Of a DNA stretch of 64,000 nt, positions 1 to 58,627 are shown one piece after another. The stretch is from Sisyra terminalis (lineage: Eukaryota; Arthropoda; Insecta; Neuroptera; Sisyridae). The position numbers and the translations under genes are program-made. Each line of letters opens with the position of its first letter. The first letter of the stretch is position 1. A model generated the notes under the pieces. It had not been told where the DNA came from. It made no database searches and was given only the letters and a program-made list of their open reading frames with translations. Where the stretch lies: assembly GCA_958496175.1 (NCBI GenBank), contig OY292275.1:2108001-2172000 (forward strand), read 5' to 3'.

Positions 1-235
1 TTTAAAATACCATAATTTGTACTTTCATACAGATGCATACTTGAATGCACTTTGGTGCATCGTCCGATCGTATTATATGCAAATTTCTATTAATCAATTT
101 CAACAAAAGTATGCAAGTGAAACTTGATGTTGTTTATCAAAATTTCTGTAAGAAACTTGAAACCGAAAATAAAACACTTAGGAAATGTTTTAGTGAAGAA
201 AATTTATAATTTCTTCTCTAAACTCAATTTTTGTA

Positions 236-882
236 CTGTGTATCCAATATATAAGGATATATTGCTGTCAAATTTATGTAGGATAATTTAATATAATAAT
301 ATATAAAAATTAAATTTGAACAGAAGTTCAAACAAAAATATTCGTGACGTTTTGTCCAGACACGTATTTCGATTGTCAAGCAATCTTCCTCAATGGTCAT
401 CAAGTAGTTTGGATCACTCCGTAACTGCTTTGAGTGAAGTTTGCTTGGCAATCGAAATACGTATCGGGGCAATACGTCATAAATATTTTTTCATAAAATT
501 TTATGTAGTATAATTTAATATAATAATTTATAAAAATCATACCATAAACATAAATTTGAACAGAAGTTCCAACAAAAATATTTTTTGACGTATTGCCCAG
601 ATACGTATTTTGATTGCCAAGCAATCTTCCTGTGAATCATCACAAAGCAGTTACGGAGTGATCCAAACTACTTGATGACCATTGAGGAAGATTGCTTGGC
701 AATCGAAATACGTATCTGGGCAATACGTCACGAATATTTTTGTTCAAACAAATTCTGTTCAAATGGTATGATTTTTATATATTATTATATCAGATTATAC
801 TACACAAATTAAACCTCAATATATTCTATATATTGTATACACAGTATAACTGTTCAAAGTCAGCGAAAAAAGCATATTTTGA
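236..882 (-). mobile_element. Element A copy 1: head-to-tail partial dimer with hammerhead-like arms
   Basis: This is a palindromic element of the family also found at 21.5, 38.1, 41.0, 42.2 and 58.4 kb. It is longer than its relatives because an incomplete unit (about 236-510) is joined head-to-tail to a complete one (about 510-882). The right end reads, on the minus strand, through TTTTTTCGCTGAC, which is the fixed end of the family. The left end stops near CTGTGTATCC. The 12-bp direct repeat TCAATTTTTGTA lies at 224-235 and 883-894, so the whole 1.5-mer appears to have inserted as one unit. Hammerhead-like cores sit on the minus strand near 355-397 and on the plus strand near 679-719. Both carry a C to T change in CTGAGGA, and the middle arm (598-636) has lost GAAA. 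Open frames here are by-products of the inverted repeat. The family assignment is firm; the transposition mechanism is inferred. Confidence 0.8.
679..719 (+). ncRNA. Hammerhead-like motif, A copy 1 right arm (mutated core)
   Basis: The order is TTGAGGA, A, stem II GATTGC/GCAATC with loop TTG, GAAA, palindromic TACGTA, TC and TGG. The first core base is T where the hammerhead consensus has C, so this copy is probably inactive. CCA before the core is reduced to CCAT-type sequence but still faces TGG after the predicted cleavage site. The motif is homologous to the better preserved copies at 38280-38320 and 42324-42364. Confidence 0.5.
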
Positions 883-1285: not shown

Positions 1286-2097
1286 CTCTATACTATAACT
1301 CAATGGTAGTGCATTAAGCGGGCATGGTAAAATAGATTTCTAGTAGTTCGATAAAATTTTCGGCGGGAATTTCAAAATTAAAATTTTTATAATAGTTTTT
1401 TGGACTTCAATTAATTACACATTATGATAGTCATTATGATAGTCAATTAGTGGGTTTTGGGCTCGTCACATTGTTGCACTGCAATTGTTATACGTTGTTA
1501 TTATTATTGTGCCCCCGATTTCGTGTAATGCAAAATTTCACAAACTCTACGTGACATATACATACAGTCTAAATAGCCAATTTAATCTTTTATTTGAAAA
1601 CTAGTAACTTTTCGTGAAATACTCACAGCTCAACACGGATAAAACTAACAAATGGCTAAAATTAGCAATTGAATCCAATCGAAATAACAGTTGAAACTAA
1701 TGACATGATAGTTCAAATTTGATTTTTGTATCGATAACGAGGGAACTCGATAAAAATTGACAAGGAAAAGTAAGTTCGATTACTCTGCAACGTAACAGTG
1801 CAATTTTACACTTTATAAACTTGATATAAGCGTTTTCTACAGACATTTTCATTCAATCGTTTATGGAAAATTTTTGCGTCAACTACATTTGCAAGTTTAA
1901 GATTTTTCTATGAAAATTTCATATCCATTCGCGGAATAAAATATGGAAATATAAATTCAACATAAATTTTATCAAAAGGAATATATTTTCGCAATGAAAT
2001 TTCGTTTTTGTCGAAAGTGTTAAAAAAAATCGATTTGAATCTGAAAGAAGTACGTGCGTTTTTATTCCAATGCGTAAATATTTTTTATGCCTATACT

Positions 2098-2297
2098 GTG
2101 TTGTTCGATGTTATTCCTTATATAATAAAAATATAATAATGACTATCCCCTGACAAAGAAATTTTTTTTACCAATAAAAATTATTTCGATTATTCTAAAA
2201 TAAATCGTTAATCTTTGTTTTATTTGAATGAAAACTTTGTTACGAATAAACAAATTGAAATCAGTTGTTGTTGAGGAATAACACAGAACATCACAAT
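2098..2297. repeat. Short inverted-repeat element P, copy 1
   Basis: The ends are TGTTGTTCGATGTTATTCCT and AGGAATAACACAGAACATCA, near-perfect reverse complements about 200 bp apart with an AT-rich centre. A second copy with the same ends lies at 18541-18805. It has no coding capacity, so it is best read as a MITE-like element of unknown superfamily. No target duplication is evident. Confidence 0.55.
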
Positions 2298-3200
2298 TAC
2301 TAAAAATAAGAATAATTTCGTAAAGAAATTAATATACATGTTAATTTCCAATTCCAACAATAAAAGTGAAAAACTGCTTATTAATTAATAATTATTATTG
2401 CAAAGTACAAGCTGGTACAAGCTTTAGTTACCTCTGTCAAGTTATAATTATAAATTTGGATAAATTTTTAGATTGACTTTTGCTTGAGTATAATAAATTT
2501 TCGGTTTAATTGTTGCAATGGTAGAGACTTGGGAAATCTTATCTAAAATATGCTGCGCATTAAACAAGCTTTCACAGATTTTCCTGATAGATAAAGTCTG
2601 GAATGATGAAGCACTGAGAAAACGTAAACGCCCGATAAATTACAGTCAATTTACGTTTATAAATTCCCACTAATTAACAACAATTTCTCGAGGGATAGAT
2701 TGCACTAAATCAATTATACCATTTGCCCGTCAACATTTCCAATTTCGTGTATCCAGCATCCAGGATGCTGGATTTATTTTATCCAAAGTGTTTCAAATAT
2801 TTATCATTGCAAAATGACGGGGAAATTAATTTGCTACGATGAAGAATTGAAAAAAAAAAATTGAAATGATTTTCATTTCAGTGGTTGTGCCAGCGTAAAT
2901 ATTTATATTTATATATACATTTTTTTTTCATTGTGCGATTTACATTTAGTGAACAGTGGAATGGAATGAATGTGACGCCGTGCGGGGCAGGGCGGGAGAG
3001 AGAGGTAAATCTTTCATTCCCGAAGGACTTGAGGCTGGAGGCTACTAAATGACTTCATAACGTGTATTACGACAACTATAGATTTTTCTATATAGCCACA
3101 TTTTTGCCATAGTACCTTCCACTCATTGAATTGTATAGATATACTTTTCTACTTCAACTTCTTTTTTTTTTCGTCACAATTCTGTGAGCTTTTCTTTGGA

Positions 3201-19289: not shown

Positions 19290-19478
19290 AATAAGAAGAC
19301 AATTCAGGTAGTTTAAGATCGGTTTTTTTATTTATTTTATTTAGTATTCAATTAGCTACGTTTCGTTACATATCGTAACTTCATCAGGCTTCTTGATTAT
19401 CAAATTTTTTTTTTCAATTTAAATTCAATAAATTAATAAAAATTGATCTTAAACAACCTGAATTGTCTTCTTATTTAA
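19290..19478. mobile_element. Palindromic element B, copy 1, with hammerhead-like motif
   Basis: The outer arms AATAAGAAGACAATTCAGG and CCTGAATTGTCTTCTTATT are inverted repeats of about 30 bp continuing into TTTAAGATC. The left interior holds the hammerhead-like motif on the minus strand. The right arm of this copy has lost its counterpart by deletion (about 19400-19440 is AT-rich filler). Copy 2 (43318-43572) keeps both arms. Small size, palindromy and the ribozyme motif are shared with family A. Confidence 0.65.
19354..19390 (-). ncRNA. Hammerhead-like ribozyme motif in element B copy 1
   Basis: Read on the minus strand: AGC (stem I), CTGATGA, A, stem II GTTACG with TGTAAC around loop ATA, GAAA, CG (stem III), TA (cleavage site), GCT (stem I). 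All invariant core bases of the hammerhead consensus are present. Stem II has one G-T wobble in this copy. Stem III is only the self-complementary CG, so activity would need two molecules pairing, as known for short-stem-III hammerheads. One extra A lies between the core and stem II, as in family A. Confidence 0.6.
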
Positions 19479-21523: not shown

Positions 21524-21953
21524 CAAAATAAGATTTTTTCGCCGACTTCGAACAGTTATACTGTGTATACAATATAAAGAATATATTGCGGTCCAATTTA
21601 TGTAGTATAATTTAATATATTAATAATATATAAAAATCATACCATAAACATAAATTTGAACAGAAGTTTAAACAAAAATATTAGTGAGTGACGTATTGCC
21701 CCGATACGTATTTCGATTGCCAAGCAATCTTCCTCACTAGTCATCACAAAGCAGTTACGGAGTGATCCAAACTACTTGATGACCACTAAGGAAGATGGCT
21801 TGGCAATCGAAATACGTATCTGGGCAATACGTCACCAATATTTTTGTTTGAATTTTTGTTCAAATTTATGTTTATGGTATAATTTTTATATATTATTATA
21901 TTAAATTATAATACATAAATTGAACCGCACTATATGCTATATATTTTATACAC
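21524..21953 (+). mobile_element. Palindromic element A, copy 2
   Basis: The fixed end is CAAAATAAGATTTTTTCGCC and the other end is ATATTTTATACAC. It is flanked by ATTAAAAAATAAG (21511-21523) and ATTAGAAAATAAG (21954-21966), a 13-bp target duplication with one mismatch. The 430-bp element is a near-perfect palindrome apart from about 25 bp at the fixed end. Both hammerhead-like arms (21701-21741 minus, 21783-21824 plus) have core changes: GTGAGGA and CTAAGGA in place of CTGAGGA. Stem II and GAAATACGTATC are retained. Confidence 0.85.
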
Positions 21954-21966
21954 ATTAGAAAATAAG

Positions 21967-37684: not shown

Positions 37685-38147
37685 TTTTTTTTTATTTTTT
37701 TTTTACAAAATTGTTGTAAAAAGAACCTTAATCTGATAAGAATTTTTTTTAAATTCTTACCCTAAAAGAGTAAAAGGGGTGACTAAGTTTGTACGAGAAA
37801 ATGTAGAGTTAATCAGCAATTGAAATTTTGAATTTAGTAAGTCTAATTATTAAATAAATAATAAATTAATAATAAGTTTCTGTTTTTGTTATATCATTTT
37901 AATAACAATGTTTTAAATAACGTTATTTCACTAAATTAGTATGAAAGTTTATGTAGAACTTATTCTAAAAAAGCGATTTTTAATTTTTGTTTGTTTTTCA
38001 ACAATCAAACTTTTTGAAATCTAATTTTTATCAACCAAAATGATTGTGACCTGGAGCAATTATTTATTCTGCTGAAAAACATTAAGCGAGCAATTTTTTG
38101 TCATTTATTCTATTATCAATCAAAATATTAAATCTTCCAAACTAACT

Positions 38148-38566
38148 GTGTATACAATATTTAAAGAATATATGGCGATCCAATTTATGTAGTATAGTTT
38201 AATATAATCATATGTAAAAATTATACCGTAAACATAAATCTGAGCAGCAGTTCAAACAAAAATATTCGTGACGTATTGTCCAGATACGTATTTCGATTGC
38301 CAAGCAATCTTCCTCAGTGGTCATCAAGTAGTCTGTAGTCAAGTAGAAGAGTGATCCAAACTACTTAATGACCACGGAAGAAGGTTGCTTGGCAATCGAA
38401 ATACGTATCTGGGCAATACGTCACGAATATTTTTGTTTGAACTGCTGCTCAAATTTATTTTAATGGTATGATTTTTAATTATACCACATAAATTGGACCA
38501 CGATATATTCTTTATATTGTATACACAGTGTAACTGTTCAAAGTCAGCGAAAAAATCTAATTTTGA
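38148..38566 (-). mobile_element. Palindromic element A, copy 3, nested in HEL2
   Basis: The fixed end is on the right (GCGAAAAAATCTAATTTTGA) and the variable end on the left (GTGTATACAATATT). CTTCCAAACTAACT lies at 38134-38147 and 38567-38580, a perfect 14-bp target duplication. The third Helitron body is uninterrupted at the same point (55155-55185, AATCTTCGATACAAAC then TTCGGTATTTAG), so the host sequence without the insertion can be read directly. The left arm has an intact hammerhead-like core on the minus strand; the right arm has lost it (GGAAGA). Confidence 0.9.
38280..38320 (-). ncRNA. Hammerhead-like ribozyme motif, A copy 3 (intact core)
   Basis: Minus strand order: CCA (38318-38320), CTGAGGA (38311-38317), A, stem II GATTGC/GCAATC with loop TTG, GAAA (38291-38294), palindromic TACGTA (38285-38290), TC (38283-38284) and TGG (38280-38282). 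CCA and TGG form stem I. The predicted cleavage is after the C of GTATC. All bases invariant in the hammerhead core are present. Known short-stem-III hammerheads work as dimers. The extra A before stem II departs from the textbook fold but is shared with family B. Confidence 0.65.
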
Positions 38567-39817
38567 CTTCCAAACTAACTTGTCTTCGGTATTTAGAAAA
38601 ATTTGAAAATCAATTATTGTTATTGAAAATATTTATAATATTCTTATTTCCTTCCACGTTTTCTACCTATTTCCATCAATTTTGTATGTACAACGACCAA
38701 ATGTGCAAAATCGAATTGCTTTTTAGTCGTGATAATCAAAATAAAGGAGGACATAATTTTTTTCATTTTACATTGTATTTTTTTAAATATTAATGCAAAT
38801 TTGTGTCGATGAAATTTGGAAAATGTTTTTCTTATACGATGCAGATATATAATAAGAAAGGGTTTTTGATAATTCCTCCCCTAAAAGAGTGAAAAATGGT
38901 GGCGAAGTTTGTACGGCATAACATCTATTATACAATCGAAATTTCAAATTTAATTATCAAAGTATGTTCGTTATAGATGAAATATTTTATCGCTTAAAAT
39001 AAAACAATGTTGGTTTATTATTAAAAACAAAAACTTTGGGTCTGCTAAAAAATTTAAACTCTAATATATATATTTGAAAAAGGGTAAGTTCATAAGTGAG
39101 CATTTAGTTTTTTTGCTTTCACATATTGTAAACCCGAAAATCCGAAATACGTATTCACAAATACATTAGTGAGCGAATATCGAGTAGCGAGAAATTCGGC
39201 GAACTGAAAGAAAATGTTTTAATTATATAGTTGAAATTCAGATATTTTAATAATAAGTGCATAGGTACACAATGGTTATACTTGATTATGGAGGAACTGG
39301 GTTTCGTGCATTTGAACAAATTTTAATTTCGCCGTAGTTTTGTACATTTCAGTAGTGTAAAAGTTGAGACAATGAAATGGGATTTCTAGTAATATTCTAA
39401 ATATCTAGGCGAGTGTTTTGATAACTTTTGATTGTTTTAAGTCATAATTATGATTGACTTTATTGAACTTGGCGATATTTTTTATTTATGTATAGATCCT
39501 GATTGATTTACGGATTAATTGGTTTACGGTAGGTATACCTACCGTAGGTATACGCAATTGAAGATATTCTTTTTAGATATTTATAAATATTTTTTGAAAA
39601 TTAATTGATCATTATATACAACTATTTTATTTTAAGTAGCAGTTGATTTAATGTGTCTTTTTAAAGTTGATTAAATCGTGTTTTCAGGTATGATTATGTT
39701 TTCCGTAAAAGAAATAAGAAAAATAATAATTTTCATATACCACTTCAAATAGCAAATCTCAAAAGAAAATATAATCCACACCTACGTTACGCAGACGAAG
39801 TCGCGGGGATCAGCTAG

Positions 39818-41005: not shown

Positions 41006-41474
41006 AAAAAGATTTTTTCGCTAACTTTGAACAGTTATACTGTCTATACAATATATAGAATATATTGTGCTCCAATTTATGAAGTATAATTTAATTTATT
41101 AATAATATATAAAAATCATACCATAAACATAAATTTGAACAGCAGTTCAAACAAAAATATTCGTGATGTATTACCCCCGATACGTATTTCGATTGCCAAG
41201 CAATCTTTCTCAGTGGTCATCAAGTAGTTTGGATCACTCCGTAACTGCTTTGTGATGATCCACAAAATAATCACGAATTGCTCCAAACTACTTGATGACC
41301 ACTGAGGAAGATTGCTTGGCAATCGAAATACGTACCGGGGCAATACGTCACGAATATTTTTGTTCAAATAAATTCTGTTCAAATTTATGTGTATGGTATG
41401 ACTTTTATATATAATTATTATAATAAATTATCCTACATAAATTGGACCGCAATATATTCTATATATTGTATACA
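41006..41474 (+). mobile_element. Palindromic element A, copy 4
   Basis: It starts AAAAAGATTTTTTCGC and ends TATATTGTATACA. CACATGGTTTCG at 40994-41005 and 41475-41486 is a perfect 12-bp target duplication. The minus-strand arm (about 41176-41216) reads CTGAGAA. The plus-strand arm has an intact core. Confidence 0.9.
41299..41339 (+). ncRNA. Hammerhead-like motif, A copy 4 right arm
   Basis: CCA (41299-41301), CTGAGGA (41302-41308), A, stem II GATTGC/GCAATC with loop TTG, GAAA (41325-41328) and TACGTA (41329-41334) are followed by CC in place of TC. The U of the NUH cleavage triplet is therefore changed to C here, which should prevent cleavage even though the core is intact. Confidence 0.55.
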
Positions 41475-41551
41475 CACATGGTTTCGGTTTAAATTAGTAT
41501 TCTTGACACACTTGTGGAGGCGCCACATTTACTGAAATTGTTTGACTAGAG

Positions 41552-42127: not shown

Positions 42128-42161
42128 TATGAAAACACAAAATTTAATTACAACTTATGAT

Positions 42162-42581
42162 CAAAATAAGAATTTTTCGCTGACAGATATACTGTGTATA
42201 CAATATATATAATATATTGCGGTCCAATTTATGTAGGATAATTTAAGATAATAATATATAAAAATCACACCATAAACATAAATTTGAACAGAAGTTCAAA
42301 CAAAAATATTCGTGACGTATTGCCCAGATACGTATTTCGATTGCCAAGCAATCTTCCTCAGTGGTCATCAATTAGTTTGGATCACTCCATAACTGCTTTG
42401 TGACGATTCACAGAAAGATTTCTTGGAAATCGAAATACGTATCTGGGCAATACGTCACGAATATTTTTGTTTGAACTTCTGTTCAAATTTATGTTTATGG
42501 TATGACTTTTATATATTATTATTAAATTAAATTATACTACATAAATTGGACCGCAATATATCCTATATATTGTATACACAG
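42162..42581 (+). mobile_element. Palindromic element A, copy 5
   Basis: It starts CAAAATAAGAATTTTTCGC and ends TATTGTATACACAG. TACAACTTATGAT at 42149-42161 and 42582-42594 is a perfect 13-bp target duplication. The minus-strand arm (42324-42364) has an intact core. The plus-strand arm (42411-42446) has lost CTGAGGA but keeps a paired stem II in altered form (GATTTC with GAAATC). Confidence 0.9.
42324..42364 (-). ncRNA. Hammerhead-like ribozyme motif, A copy 5 (intact core)
   Basis: Minus strand: CCA (42362-42364), CTGAGGA (42355-42361), A, GATTGC/GCAATC with loop TTG, GAAA (42335-42338), TACGTA (42329-42334), TC (42327-42328) and TGG (42324-42326). It has the same architecture as copy 3, with every core position matching the hammerhead consensus. 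Confidence 0.65.
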
Positions 42582-43378
42582 TACAACTTATGATTTTAAA
42601 TCAATGATAGATCCAGCCTCAATAATATCAACTTTTTGGAATCTAATGTGCAAATTTTCAATGCCAAATTCGTAAAAATCACTTTGCAGAATTATAATGG
42701 ATACGGCTATTTCTCCCCCCCCTCTTATTTTTCAGGTTTTTCCAGGGCATTTCTTCTGCAGAGGAGTCTTGCATTACCATTTTGCCACATAGAATTTTCT
42801 CTGTTGACAATTTTTGGGCACTTTTGGGACCAAAATTGAATAGGAATAATTGATACCACTTTAACTTTCTGGCCAAGATTTGGCATCATATCTTCTTTAA
42901 CTTCTTATTGGTCACATTTTTTGCCATTATTCGTTGGTACCAACTAGTACCAGGAGAAAATTATAGCTAATTACTCCGATCTGGTCTCACCAATTGTACA
43001 ATAATTAGTTCTTGCCAAAAATATTTTAAGGTTCAAAGGTGATGAATGACCAGGTTTACCACATAATTTTCTCTTTTTTTTTTGGATTATCAAATTGGAT
43101 GCACTTTTCATCCCTCATCTCTATTCTTTGCAAAAATTTTTCGGTTTTTGGTTCAATTTTAAGATTTCCACGAACTCCTTACGTTTAATATGAGCTTGAT
43201 TCAATAACTCCAATTAAAATGGTTAATTTATCAATCTTCCAACGTTAATTTTTTTCTGTAAAAGTTAAAAAAAAATCAAATTGAATTTTATGAAATTTGA
43301 ATAAATTTAACAGAAACTAGAAAACAATTCAAGTTGTGTAAGATCGGTTTTTTTATTTGAAATTTTTATTATTTAATT

Positions 43379-43415
43379 AGCTACGTTTCGTTACGTATCA
43401 TAACTTCATCAGGCT
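43379..43415 (-). ncRNA. Hammerhead-like motif, B copy 2 left arm
   Basis: Minus strand: AGC, CTGATGA (43406-43412), A, stem II GTTATG/CGTAAC (one wobble) with loop ATA, GAAA (43386-43389), CG, TA and GCT. Core bases are intact. Stem I is AGC/GCT. Confidence 0.6.
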
Positions 43416-43476
43416 TCTTGATTCACATTTTTTTTTTAAATTTTACTTGAAAATATTTTATTTTTGTGAATCAAGA

Positions 43477-43513
43477 AGCCTGAGGAAGTTACGATACGTC
43501 ACGAAACGTCGCT
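43477..43513 (+). ncRNA. Hammerhead-like motif, B copy 2 right arm
   Basis: AGC (43477-43479), CTGAGGA (43480-43486), A, GTTACG/CGTCAC with loop ATA (one mismatch in stem II), GAAA (43503-43506), CG, TC (43509-43510) and GCT (43511-43513). The cleavage triplet is GTC, the most common one in natural hammerheads. Confidence 0.6.
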
Positions 43514-52939: not shown

Positions 52940-53953
52940 TAAGGTGATTTTTTTTTGACTTTTTTTGATCCCATCGTGAAATTTTGTTGGAAATACCAAA
53001 AAAAAAAAATTCTCTGAAAGTTTGAGCCCTTAATATTAATTTTAAATTCTCGACCAAGACGTGTAGAAATTTCTCATTGAAGATACACGGAAACTCTGAT
53101 TTTTTATTTTTAAATTTCTATATCTCAGCGGCATTTCATGGGATCGCATTTACCGCAGATGATTTTTTCTCAGAATTAAACGCTCTACAAAAGTGCCCAT
53201 TGCGACAAAGTCGTAACTCACACCGATGAGGTAGTACGGGCCACTGAACCTGATTTTTCCATAAAATTCGCGTTTTTTTTGTATTTATCTCGTAAACAAC
53301 AAGAGCTACGGAAAATTATAAATAAAAACCTTGTAGAGAATTTGATTTCTTACAAAAAAGTTCTTGTAGACCAAATCGCGAAGATCAATATTAAACGAGA
53401 TATTAAGCCTTGAACTGATTTTTCTGTGAAATTTTTGCCGATTAAACTTATTAAAATCTTTTTTTAGAAAAATCAATTCAAGGTTCAATATCTCGTTTAA
53501 TATTGACTTTCGCGATTTGGTCTACGAGAACTTTTTTGTAGGAAATCAAATTCTCTACAAGTTTTTTATTTATAATTTTTCCGTAGCTCTTGTTATTTAC
53601 GAGATAAATGCAAAAAAAAAGCGAATTTTATGGAAAAATCAGGTTCAGCGGCCCGTGCTACCTCACCGGTGTGAGTTACGACTTTGTCGCAATGGGCACT
53701 TTTGTAGAGCGTTTAATTCTGAGAAAAAACCATCTTCGGTAAAAGCGATCCCATGAAATGCCGCTGAGATATAGAAATTTAAAAATAAAAAATCAGAGTT
53801 TCCGTGTATTTTCAATGGGAAATCTTTACACGTCTTGGTCGAGGACTTAAAATTAATATTAAGGGCTCAAACTTTCAGAGAATTTTTTTTTGTATTTCCA
53901 ACAAAATTTCACGATGGAACCAAAAAAAAAAAAGTAAAAAAAAAATCACCCTA
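52940..53953 (+). mobile_element. Foldback element G, copy 2 (1.01-kb hairpin)
   Basis: It runs from TAAGGTGATTTTTTTT to AAAAAAATCACCCTA, with arms of about 490 bp and a loop near 53430-53470. All G1 modules are present in order. It sits at a different site in X2 from G1 in X1, so the two are separate insertions. Frames at 53306-53756 are arm sequence. Confidence 0.85.
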
Positions 53954-56922: not shown

Positions 56923-58409
56923 ATGTAAGAGTTTTTTTTCTTTTACGTATACCAATTAAAACTTTATTTTCAGTGCCATTTTCCGCGAAAAAACACACTT
57001 TTTACTGACGAAAAACCAATTGTCACATAAATGCCTCTTGGAATTAGTTTGTAGATGGATAAATCAAAAAATTTCAATCAAACTCCTGAAAACATTTCAT
57101 TCATTTCCGAATTTTCAATACTTCCTTAAAATTAGTCCAATTTCAAGCCGAAGAAGATTTGATGGTAAATAACATCCTTTCCTTTTAGCTTCCAATCGTT
57201 AAGATTTTCACATTGAAGATTATTGCATTTATTGGAGTTATCATCACTCGAATCTTGGATTGAAATTTCTCAACGAATTAGTTTTAAATTCGAGAAGCAA
57301 TCCAATTTGGATAATATGTACTACCATGTTTTCGTATCGATGGATTTATAAGAGACGGACTCAATGTTTTACTGATTCTTTGCGAAGCAAAATACGTAGT
57401 ACATGGTCGTACAAAAGCTCTTTTCTTAACGATACAACAAACGTGAAATATATTATTACACTGTAGAACGTTACATAAGGTCTTAGGGAAATGAATGGAT
57501 GTTGTGCATAGTGCCAAGAGGGTTTCTAATTAAATTACTCTAAGTGTAATTGGTAATGGAATTAATGTGGTTTTGTTTTGCGACAATCAGACTCCTTTGT
57601 TCCAATTCGGGGTTTCGATGTGTTCTTGGTCGTCAAAGAAGAGGAAGAAAATGCATAAATTCAAAGTAAAGTATGCAATATTAATATGAAAAATTCGTAT
57701 GTATTCACTAAAAATCAAACTCAATTAATTACACGTAACTGATAATTTTAATGGTACAACATTGATTCGTAATTTATAAATTGAAAGTTGCATAAATTTG
57801 CAAGGCATTGCTACTGTATAATGCTCTCTCTAACGAGAAATACATGGAGTTCCATAATTTTAATTGCTTTGCATTTATCAGCGTTTCTCGTGTTGGGTTC
57901 GATTTTTACTTTTGCGAATAATTCGGCTTTGTGGAGGGAAAATAAAATTACAAATCATCACATTTCTCTTATTTGCAGTTGTGATTGATTTTCCCGAAAC
58001 TATTTCAATTTTAAATTGATTAGATGACTGAAAATTGAATGTTTGAAAAGATGAAATATTAATGAGCAATTATTTTCGAATGCAACGATGATTTATGGTG
58101 GAAAATGATGTTTTTCTCGGTTTTGAAAAGTTTTCAACAAATCAAATTTAATGTTAAAACTGTCCAGAAGATGACAGTTGCAATTGTCTGGTGATTTTCG
58201 GTCAGGGGATGCTAGCTCAATGTTATTTTTGTGTTCCTCCAAATGGCTATCTTCCGGGCGTCATTTACTGACGGCGCTAGTGTAGCATAGCCGATAATAA
58301 CGATAACTACTTTTAACCAATTTTGGAATTTTATGCGCCAAATTCAAATTTAATTTATTCCTTCCAAATTTAATTTGTCCCTGAAATATTTAAAATGTAC
58401 TAACGAAAT
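56923..58409. other. No recognisable gene
   Basis: Single-copy in the window and somewhat less AT-rich at 57240-57480 and 58240-58320. Overlapping opposite-strand frames of 60-77 codons (57260-57517, 57788-58069) have no recognised domain. Confidence 0.35.
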
Positions 58410-58627
58410 CAAAATAAGATTTTTTTCGCTGACTTTGAACAGTTATACTGTGAATACAATATATAAAATATATTGCAGTCAAATTTATGTAGTATAATTT
58501 AATAAAATAATAATATATAAAAATCATACCACCAACATCAATTTGAACAGAAGTTCAAACAAAAATATTTGTGACGTATTGCCCAGATACGTATTTCGAT
58601 TGCCAAGCAATCTTCCTCAGTGGTCAT
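58410..58627 (+). mobile_element. Palindromic element A, copy 6 (left half)
   Basis: It starts CAAAATAAGATTTTTTTCGC, with the full left arm to CTCAGTGGTCAT, then breaks off 23 bp before element M. The right half and second target duplication are missing. The hammerhead-like arm on the minus strand is intact. Confidence 0.8.
58583..58623 (-). ncRNA. Hammerhead-like ribozyme motif, A copy 6 (intact core)
   Basis: Minus strand: CCA (58621-58623), CTGAGGA (58614-58620), A, GATTGC/GCAATC with loop TTG, GAAA, TACGTA, TC and TGG (58583-58585). Identical to copies 3 and 5. Confidence 0.65.

Follow-up and report, generated by a model that had tools for sequence, protein, structure and literature searches.

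Palindromic insertions with a hammerhead-like motif in Sisyra terminalis as the probable debris of a Penelope-like element

The family A palindromes found in the window, that is, the whole stretch of 64,000 nucleotides analysed, are very probably the debris of an endonuclease-bearing Penelope-like element (PLE), from which they would have arisen by truncation. The element is known from partial copies and is called PLE-A here; this name and that of another element, PLE-2, are working names given in this analysis. Because longer copies adjoin an end encoding reverse transcriptase (RT) and a GIY-YIG domain to the same arm that is seen in the short copies, the family A arm is identified as the 3' region, or pLTR, of a PLE. 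The observations are that short and coding copies share this arm, that the arms are arranged head-to-head, that duplications flank the insertions, that the tail is one-sided, and that the two arms of a copy resemble each other. Based on this record, the palindrome was most likely created at insertion, and priming from both sides of the target is the rather likely route.

Short copies and their coding relatives

The focal copy (38134-38580) is composed of a 14-bp repeat, two outward-reading arms of an inverted repeat, a 37-bp tail at the right end only, and the second copy of the repeat (Table 1). The tail and the flanking repeats were absent from an earlier sequence-only reading of this DNA. 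That reading described palindromic elements with a ribozyme in both arms. The focal copy is indeed an inverted repeat and its left arm is intact, but the core of its right arm reads CGGAAGA, and only one arm is seen in the copy at 58409-58627. Altogether, six or seven family A insertions lie within the window. In the 376.6-Mb genome, the 35-letter motif CTGANGA...GTATC occurs in 2754 exact copies (1383 + 1371), compared with 0 for the backward control. Among 38 copies with two arms, the core is intact in both arms of 15, in one arm of 17 and in neither arm of 6.

Table 1. Family A insertions of the window and the parts of the focal copy
Feature	Position	Strand	Remarks
Two adjacent or nested insertions	234..882	arms 371-, 439+, 612-, 690+	tail at right outer end
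Insertion (L039)	21524..21954		tail at left end only
Left flanking repeat of focal copy, 14 bp, CTTCCAAACTAACT	38134..38147		putative target-site duplication; its end overlaps the beginning of the arm
Left arm of focal copy, inverted 3' region/pLTR of PLE-A, tailless end	38145..38338	-	matched to ~19 nt upstream of GAAG
Intact hammerhead-like motif, left arm	38280..38320	-	CCA 38320-38318; CTGAGGA 38317-38311; extra A 38310; stem II 38309-38295, loop TTG; GAAA 38294-38291; TACGTA 38290-38285; TC 38284-38283; TGG 38282-38280
Right arm of focal copy, 3' region/pLTR of PLE-A	38357..38529	+	matched to ~31 nt upstream of GAAG
Hammerhead-like motif, right arm	38372..38412	+	core broken (CGGAAGA at 38375-38381)
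One-sided tail, between two inferred reverse-transcription start sites	38530..38566	+	
Right copy of flanking repeat, CTTCCAAACTAACT	38567..38580		
Insertion	41010..41476		tail at left end only; longer arm extends 72 nt upstream of motif
Insertion	42161..42582		tail at left end only; intact motif 42324-42364 (-)
Single arm with tail	58409..58627	-	intact motif 58583-58623 (-)

Coding copies were located elsewhere in the genome via the distances between exact motifs, and three palindromes with long centres were retrieved in this way. One locus, L085, contains a GIY-YIG stretch between its arms. In a DNA search with this stretch, 40 of 446 candidates were scored and yielded 77 matches; 36 places share one identical score, which indicates a young family. 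In L092 and L093, open frames for RT and GIY-YIG (250-336 aa) are followed by the family A arm, the motif and the tail. Specifically, the coding frame of L093 ends 20 nt before the motif core, the first end point lies ~135 nt beyond the motif, and a second lies 37-38 nt farther, with the tail between the two. Of 1378 candidates in a search with the L092 frame, 118 were homologues at E<=0.001. These are RT proteins whose sources include insects, ticks, corals and Anolis; nearly all are listed with PF26215, many with PF00078 and some with PF01541. The PLE-A frames themselves do not reach the curated Pfam cut-off for GIY-YIG (E 0.006-0.027), and the Pfam RT domain has no match in them. A search with the Pfam GIY-YIG domain led to two places, L041, which lacks a family A arm, and L042, which holds a broken piece of PLE-2; three pieces of L042 had no match in Pfam, and no match was obtained among solved structures.

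PLE-2 is represented by 150 of 150 scored places, of 1609 candidates, and shares 37% identity with PLE-A over 131 residues. Its layout is head-to-head like that of PLE-A, with one tail in L075, L076 and L077 as judged by eye. In the window itself, tblastn with protein pieces of PLE-A and PLE-2 found no PLE coding remains at E<=0.001.

The features expected of a PLE are thus found together: a coding frame for telomerase-type RT and GIY-YIG beside the arm (L092 and L093), inverted head-to-head pLTRs with an optional tail of 30-40 bp, and short target-site duplications of variable length (up to 14 bp, read from sequence only). The coding copies with a family A arm bear out the pointer to Penelope-like elements in the sequence-only reading. 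Its description of elements that lack coding sequence is true of the short copies but not of the longer ones, which hold the PLE coding end, and a separate foldback family is not supported, the short copies being truncated PLE insertions.

Several other properties of the coding copies were observed. In L092, PLE-A coding sequence forms a 99.2% palindrome (1387-3144). Several young PLE-A places come in inverted pairs with 1-4 kb between them, which gives the appearance of recent head-to-head insertion. In L093, a perfect 32-nt hairpin of coding sequence (1287-1318) lies at the junction of a short inverted arm and the coding half. Towards its end, the PLE-A coding frame has a C-run whose length varies among L085, L086, L094 and L096.

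Ends of the insertions and formation of the palindrome

Both ends of many short insertions can be read. Among the 40 top-scoring copies, which include the focal copy (L001) and L039, the tail of 37-38 nt is on exactly one end in 37; L007 and L033 have two tails and L035 has none. Nine further insertions with both ends readable, which comprise 41010-41476 and 42161-42582 of the window together with L082, L086, L087, L091, L093, L095 and, by eye, L094, all carry one tail. Overall, 46 of 49 examined insertions have exactly one tail in a sample that is non-random, given that a one-tailed query was used to choose the top 40 by similarity and that the other nine came up incidentally. The count leaves out the compound copy at 234-882 and the one-armed copy at 58409-58627 of the window, as well as L085, L089, L090, L092 and L096, in which one end or none is readable. 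In L094, a short tail stub at the left end is followed by coding sequence, the right end is tailless, and AAAGAGCTGTGG flanks both. Flanking duplications of at least 8 bp are present in 24 of 36 copies and absent in 12 (L033, L035, L037 and L038 of the 40 were dropped), compared with 7 of 1260 mismatched pairs.

The two arms of a copy are more alike than arms of different copies. Arm identity is 0.887 within and 0.861 between copies, a difference found in 0 of 10000 permutations (37 of the 40 copies; L035, L037 and L038 dropped). Similarly, the free core letter N7 is the same in both arms of 29 of 38 copies, a number as high in 1 of 20000 permutations. Later gene conversion between the arms could be an alternative source of this likeness.

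The inner ends were compared in 38 of the 40 loci, those with two motifs (L035 and L038 dropped). The longer arm ends 19-58 nt upstream of GAAG in these copies, and in 21 of them at 50-58 nt. The longer arms of the window copies extend 38, 56, 50, 31, 72 and 56 nt upstream of the motif. Because one of these arms reaches 72 nt and coding copies go further, 58 nt is no absolute limit. The 50-58-nt zone of L093 is preceded, 27-35 nt away, by a TATAAA, and relatives of L093 have a similar sequence; that transcripts start at this zone is a guess. That the longer arm might be the product of the leading polymerase was considered and rejected, as the tail arm is the longer one in just 17 of 37 copies (L033, L035 and L038 dropped; L007, with two tails, kept).

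Two-sided priming would account for the palindromes as follows. The PLE endonuclease would make a staggered cut in the target, and each exposed target end would serve as a primer for cDNA on PLE RNA; one of the two syntheses would begin at the tail site, the other at an inner site. Both cDNAs would run inward past the motif, and many would terminate in the ~60 nt upstream of it, possibly where the RNA has its 5' end. Joining of the two cDNAs in the middle would yield the palindrome. Longer synthesis would bring in coding sequence. An extended form of this scheme, in which three propositions are combined, is an evenly balanced matter. The starts would be anti-correlated, with one at the tail site and one 37-38 nt farther in, perhaps owing to a protein dimer or to a single RNA that offers each site once. 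The thousands of tiny palindromes would be the frozen products of abortive insertion. Finally, the shared inner limit, ~50-58 nt upstream of the motif and 27-35 nt after TATAAA, would mark the 5' end of the transcript.

Poseidon of Anolis carolinensis offers the closest view of such a reaction in vitro (PMC11167929; the papers cited by PMC number are represented here by excerpts). The PLE protein cuts and extends both target strands, two start sites bracket the tail, the targets are AT-rich, and a hammerhead lies in the pLTR/ORF region, much as is seen or proposed here. The excerpt concerns one element in vitro, with optional tails, whereas the genomic record here suggests one start site per end. 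As it describes no start-site difference between top and bottom strands (PMC11167929), one tail per insertion is not by itself predicted.

Other origins of the palindrome were weighed against two-sided priming. The PLE origin may be correct and the palindrome be the product of self-priming, either by foldback of the cDNA, for example at the near-palindrome GTGAATCATCAC, or on an antisense template, as was proposed for the PLEs of Adineta (PMC3846280). This is rather unlikely, although it has the standing of a published proposal for PLE palindromes (PMC3846280), and GTGAATCATCAC, which is upstream of the motif, sits where many longer arms end. The asymmetric palindrome centres and the short hairpin at the L093 junction would also suit it. 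An arm that was copied back should, however, share the first end, yet one end is tailed and the other starts 37-38 nt farther in, and in L094 the other end is a tail stub only. An animal retrozyme, which as a non-autonomous element would spread via hammerhead-cut circular RNA, is a very improbable identity for family A. The small size, low G+C content, type-I-like motif and presence of PLE machinery in the genome would fit (PMC7229834, PMC7761336), and animal non-LTR retrozymes are likewise small and AT-rich, carry type I hammerheads and occur in genomes with PLEs. In contrast to family A, they are described as tandem repeats of ~150-450 bp with canonical helices and circular RNA (PMC7229834); tandem repeats were not found in the family A copies read, in which the arms are inverted. 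Moreover, the arm belongs to a coding PLE, and most copies continue through the predicted cut site. The idea of an independent foldback or MITE-like DNA transposon is extremely improbable. It draws on inverted repeats of 420-470 bp that are mostly non-coding and abundant (2754 exact motifs), but symmetrical terminal inverted repeats with a duplication of fixed length were not found; the tail is asymmetric, the duplications vary in length, the centres are variable, and coding PLE copies bear the same arm.

The hammerhead-like motif

The motif of the sequence-only reading, with the order CCA/CTGAGGA/A/GATTGC-TTG-GCAATC/GAAA/TACGTA/TC/TGG, is present letter for letter at three sites of the window (38320-38280, 42364-42324 and 58623-58583), all on the minus strand, and its sequence upholds the proposed order, that of a minimal hammerhead resembling type I in which stem III is self-complementary. 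In family A, stem II comprises 6 bp and stem I 3 bp, and stem III consists only of a self-complementary stretch, for whose pairing a second copy would be required. The window was scanned for this structure, defined as the core CTGANGA with no more than 1 extra nt, stem II, GAAA, a self-complementary stem III and UH; the scan returned these three motif sites, compared with 1 match altogether in 30 Markov resamplings. When stem I of at least 3 bp was included, the window and 12 PLE-containing loci (172,012 bases) gave 16 matches, which represent three families and not independent cases, and 40 resamplings gave 0.

These families differ in their stems and have the same core. The PLE-2 motif reads TATTAC CTGATGA T GACAGT..ACTGTC GAAA CGCG TC GTAATA and was seen in 7 of 11 PLE-2 loci taken at length, and also in the stretch of L043. 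In a third palindrome family, the motif reads AGC CTGATGA A GTTACG ATA CGTAAC GAAA CG TA GCT. This family occurs in the window at 43383-43509 and at 19387 (-), with the motif intact at 43412 (-) and 19387 (-), and also in L077 at 6305 (-)/6444 (+). The single extra A between core and stem II that had been noted for family A is present, and PLE-2 and the third family have one extra nucleotide as well. With 0-2 extra nucleotides allowed, exactly one was found in 16 of 16 matches with stem I of at least 3 bp, so that an extra nucleotide between A9 and stem II is common to three families of this genome. Within family A, an alignment of 82 arms from 40 loci, 167 columns long, has its lowest conservation at N7, the free letter of CUGANGA (G 52, A 15, T 13, C 2). 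The remaining core columns average 0.95 conservation, and the whole core is kept in 51 of the 82 arms.

A position of this kind is not without parallel. In the chrysanthemum viroid hammerhead studied by De la Pena and Flores in 2001, the extra nucleotide is reportedly an A between A9 and stem II, and small PLE hammerhead variants, from work by Lunse in 2017, are said to cleave as dimers. A viroid hammerhead with an extra core nucleotide is described as weaker in activity (De la Pena and Flores 2001, via PMC11014351), and family A shares with it the one additional nucleotide in the catalytic core. Family A also resembles the known PLE hammerheads of Cervera and de la Pena 2014, as described in PMC7761336 and PMC6155905, which are minimal type-I-like motifs in pLTRs with a stem III that is nearly absent or self-complementary.

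Predictions of matching and folding are less favourable to the motif. A match to the Rfam hammerhead models, the check that the sequence-only reading had proposed, was not obtained at E up to 10 for the window or for the young PLE-A motif of L093. The PLE-2 motif of L076, which is better paired than that of PLE-A, had no Rfam hammerhead match either, and because the same models also miss this motif, the missing score is not decisive. A search of the genome with RF00163 gave 0 matches, as did the control genomes, and is hence uninformative. In single-strand folding, the motif fold is not favoured. The PLE-A double-hammerhead dimer (-20.9 kcal/mol) is about equal in stability to two monomers (2 x -10.3), and that of PLE-2 (-28.9) is somewhat more stable than its monomers (2 x -12.7), but both are less stable than the free dimer folds (-29.6 and -33.0 kcal/mol, respectively). 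Rfam microRNA families (MIR7996, MIR4372, MIR6445 and others) were reported below their gathering scores at 439-624 and 43383-43509 of the window; at these PLE-derived palindromes they look like chance matches to the fold only. A further long hairpin at 53379-53512 was matched to MIR7504, again below the gathering score.

Copy ends did not pile up at the predicted cut site in genome counts of the sequence up to and across the site. The count is 2733 for TGGGCAATACGTCACGAATA, 2505 with ATC in front and 2287 with TACGTATC in front, a drop of 8.3% over three letters and then 8.7% over five, and any excess of copy ends at the predicted site is slight at most. Accordingly, most copies derive from RNA that was uncut there; in one copy, L093, an arm ends at, or within ~2 nt of, TC/TGG. 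This agrees with insertion in vitro, which ribozyme mutants left unaffected (PMC11167929). A palindromic copy should itself be a poor ribozyme, because its transcript holds both the motif and its own complement. We infer that the putative ribozyme, if functional, works in the PLE's own RNA and not in the palindromes, and any active form would be a weak ribozyme or one dependent on a dimer or on protein.

It is unlikely that the hammerhead order is a chance or decayed resemblance that never cleaves RNA. The absence of Rfam hammerhead matches (window, L093 and L076), the stem I of just 3 bp, the unfavourable single-strand and dimer energies, and the lack of any pile-up of copy ends at the cut site are what such a resemblance would lead one to expect. 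It would, however, leave unexplained why variability among the 167 columns is highest at N7, next to core columns at 0.95, and why one core, each time with a single extra nucleotide, is retained in three families whose stems differ. Additionally, PLE pLTRs are described as keeping hammerheads (PMC7761336, PMC6155905), and the Poseidon hammerhead cleaves RNA once its protein is added (PMC11167929).

Relation to known PLEs and significance

The nearest genomic parallel is the Penelope of Adineta vaga (PMC3846280), in which head-to-head inverted pLTRs, a frame for RT and GIY-YIG and palindromes at the junctions are described. Its 31-bp tail at one inverted pLTR and its 8-10-bp duplications have counterparts in family A. 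The Adineta elements are coding copies in low number (PMC3846280), whereas short two-armed palindromes dominate the copies seen here. Another difference is that each arm here has a hammerhead-like motif, while the available text of PMC3846280 makes no mention of hammerheads.

Hammerheads of PLEs have thus been published, and a tail on one inverted pLTR is already described in PMC3846280. A count of one-tailed insertions was not found in the literature searched, and no claim is made that the one-tail rule is unpublished. The useful part of the present analysis is the large record of one-tailed, two-sided insertions. In PLE integration, further steps are yet to be validated according to the 2024 in vitro study (PMC11167929, in excerpt), and the many short insertions of this genome, with both ends readable, are a natural record of starts, stops and junctions. 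Inverted PLE debris can also be mistaken for foldback elements, MITEs or microRNA precursors. Overall, if the one-tail rule is true, it constrains the integration complex to two priming ends and two start sites, each of which would be used once.
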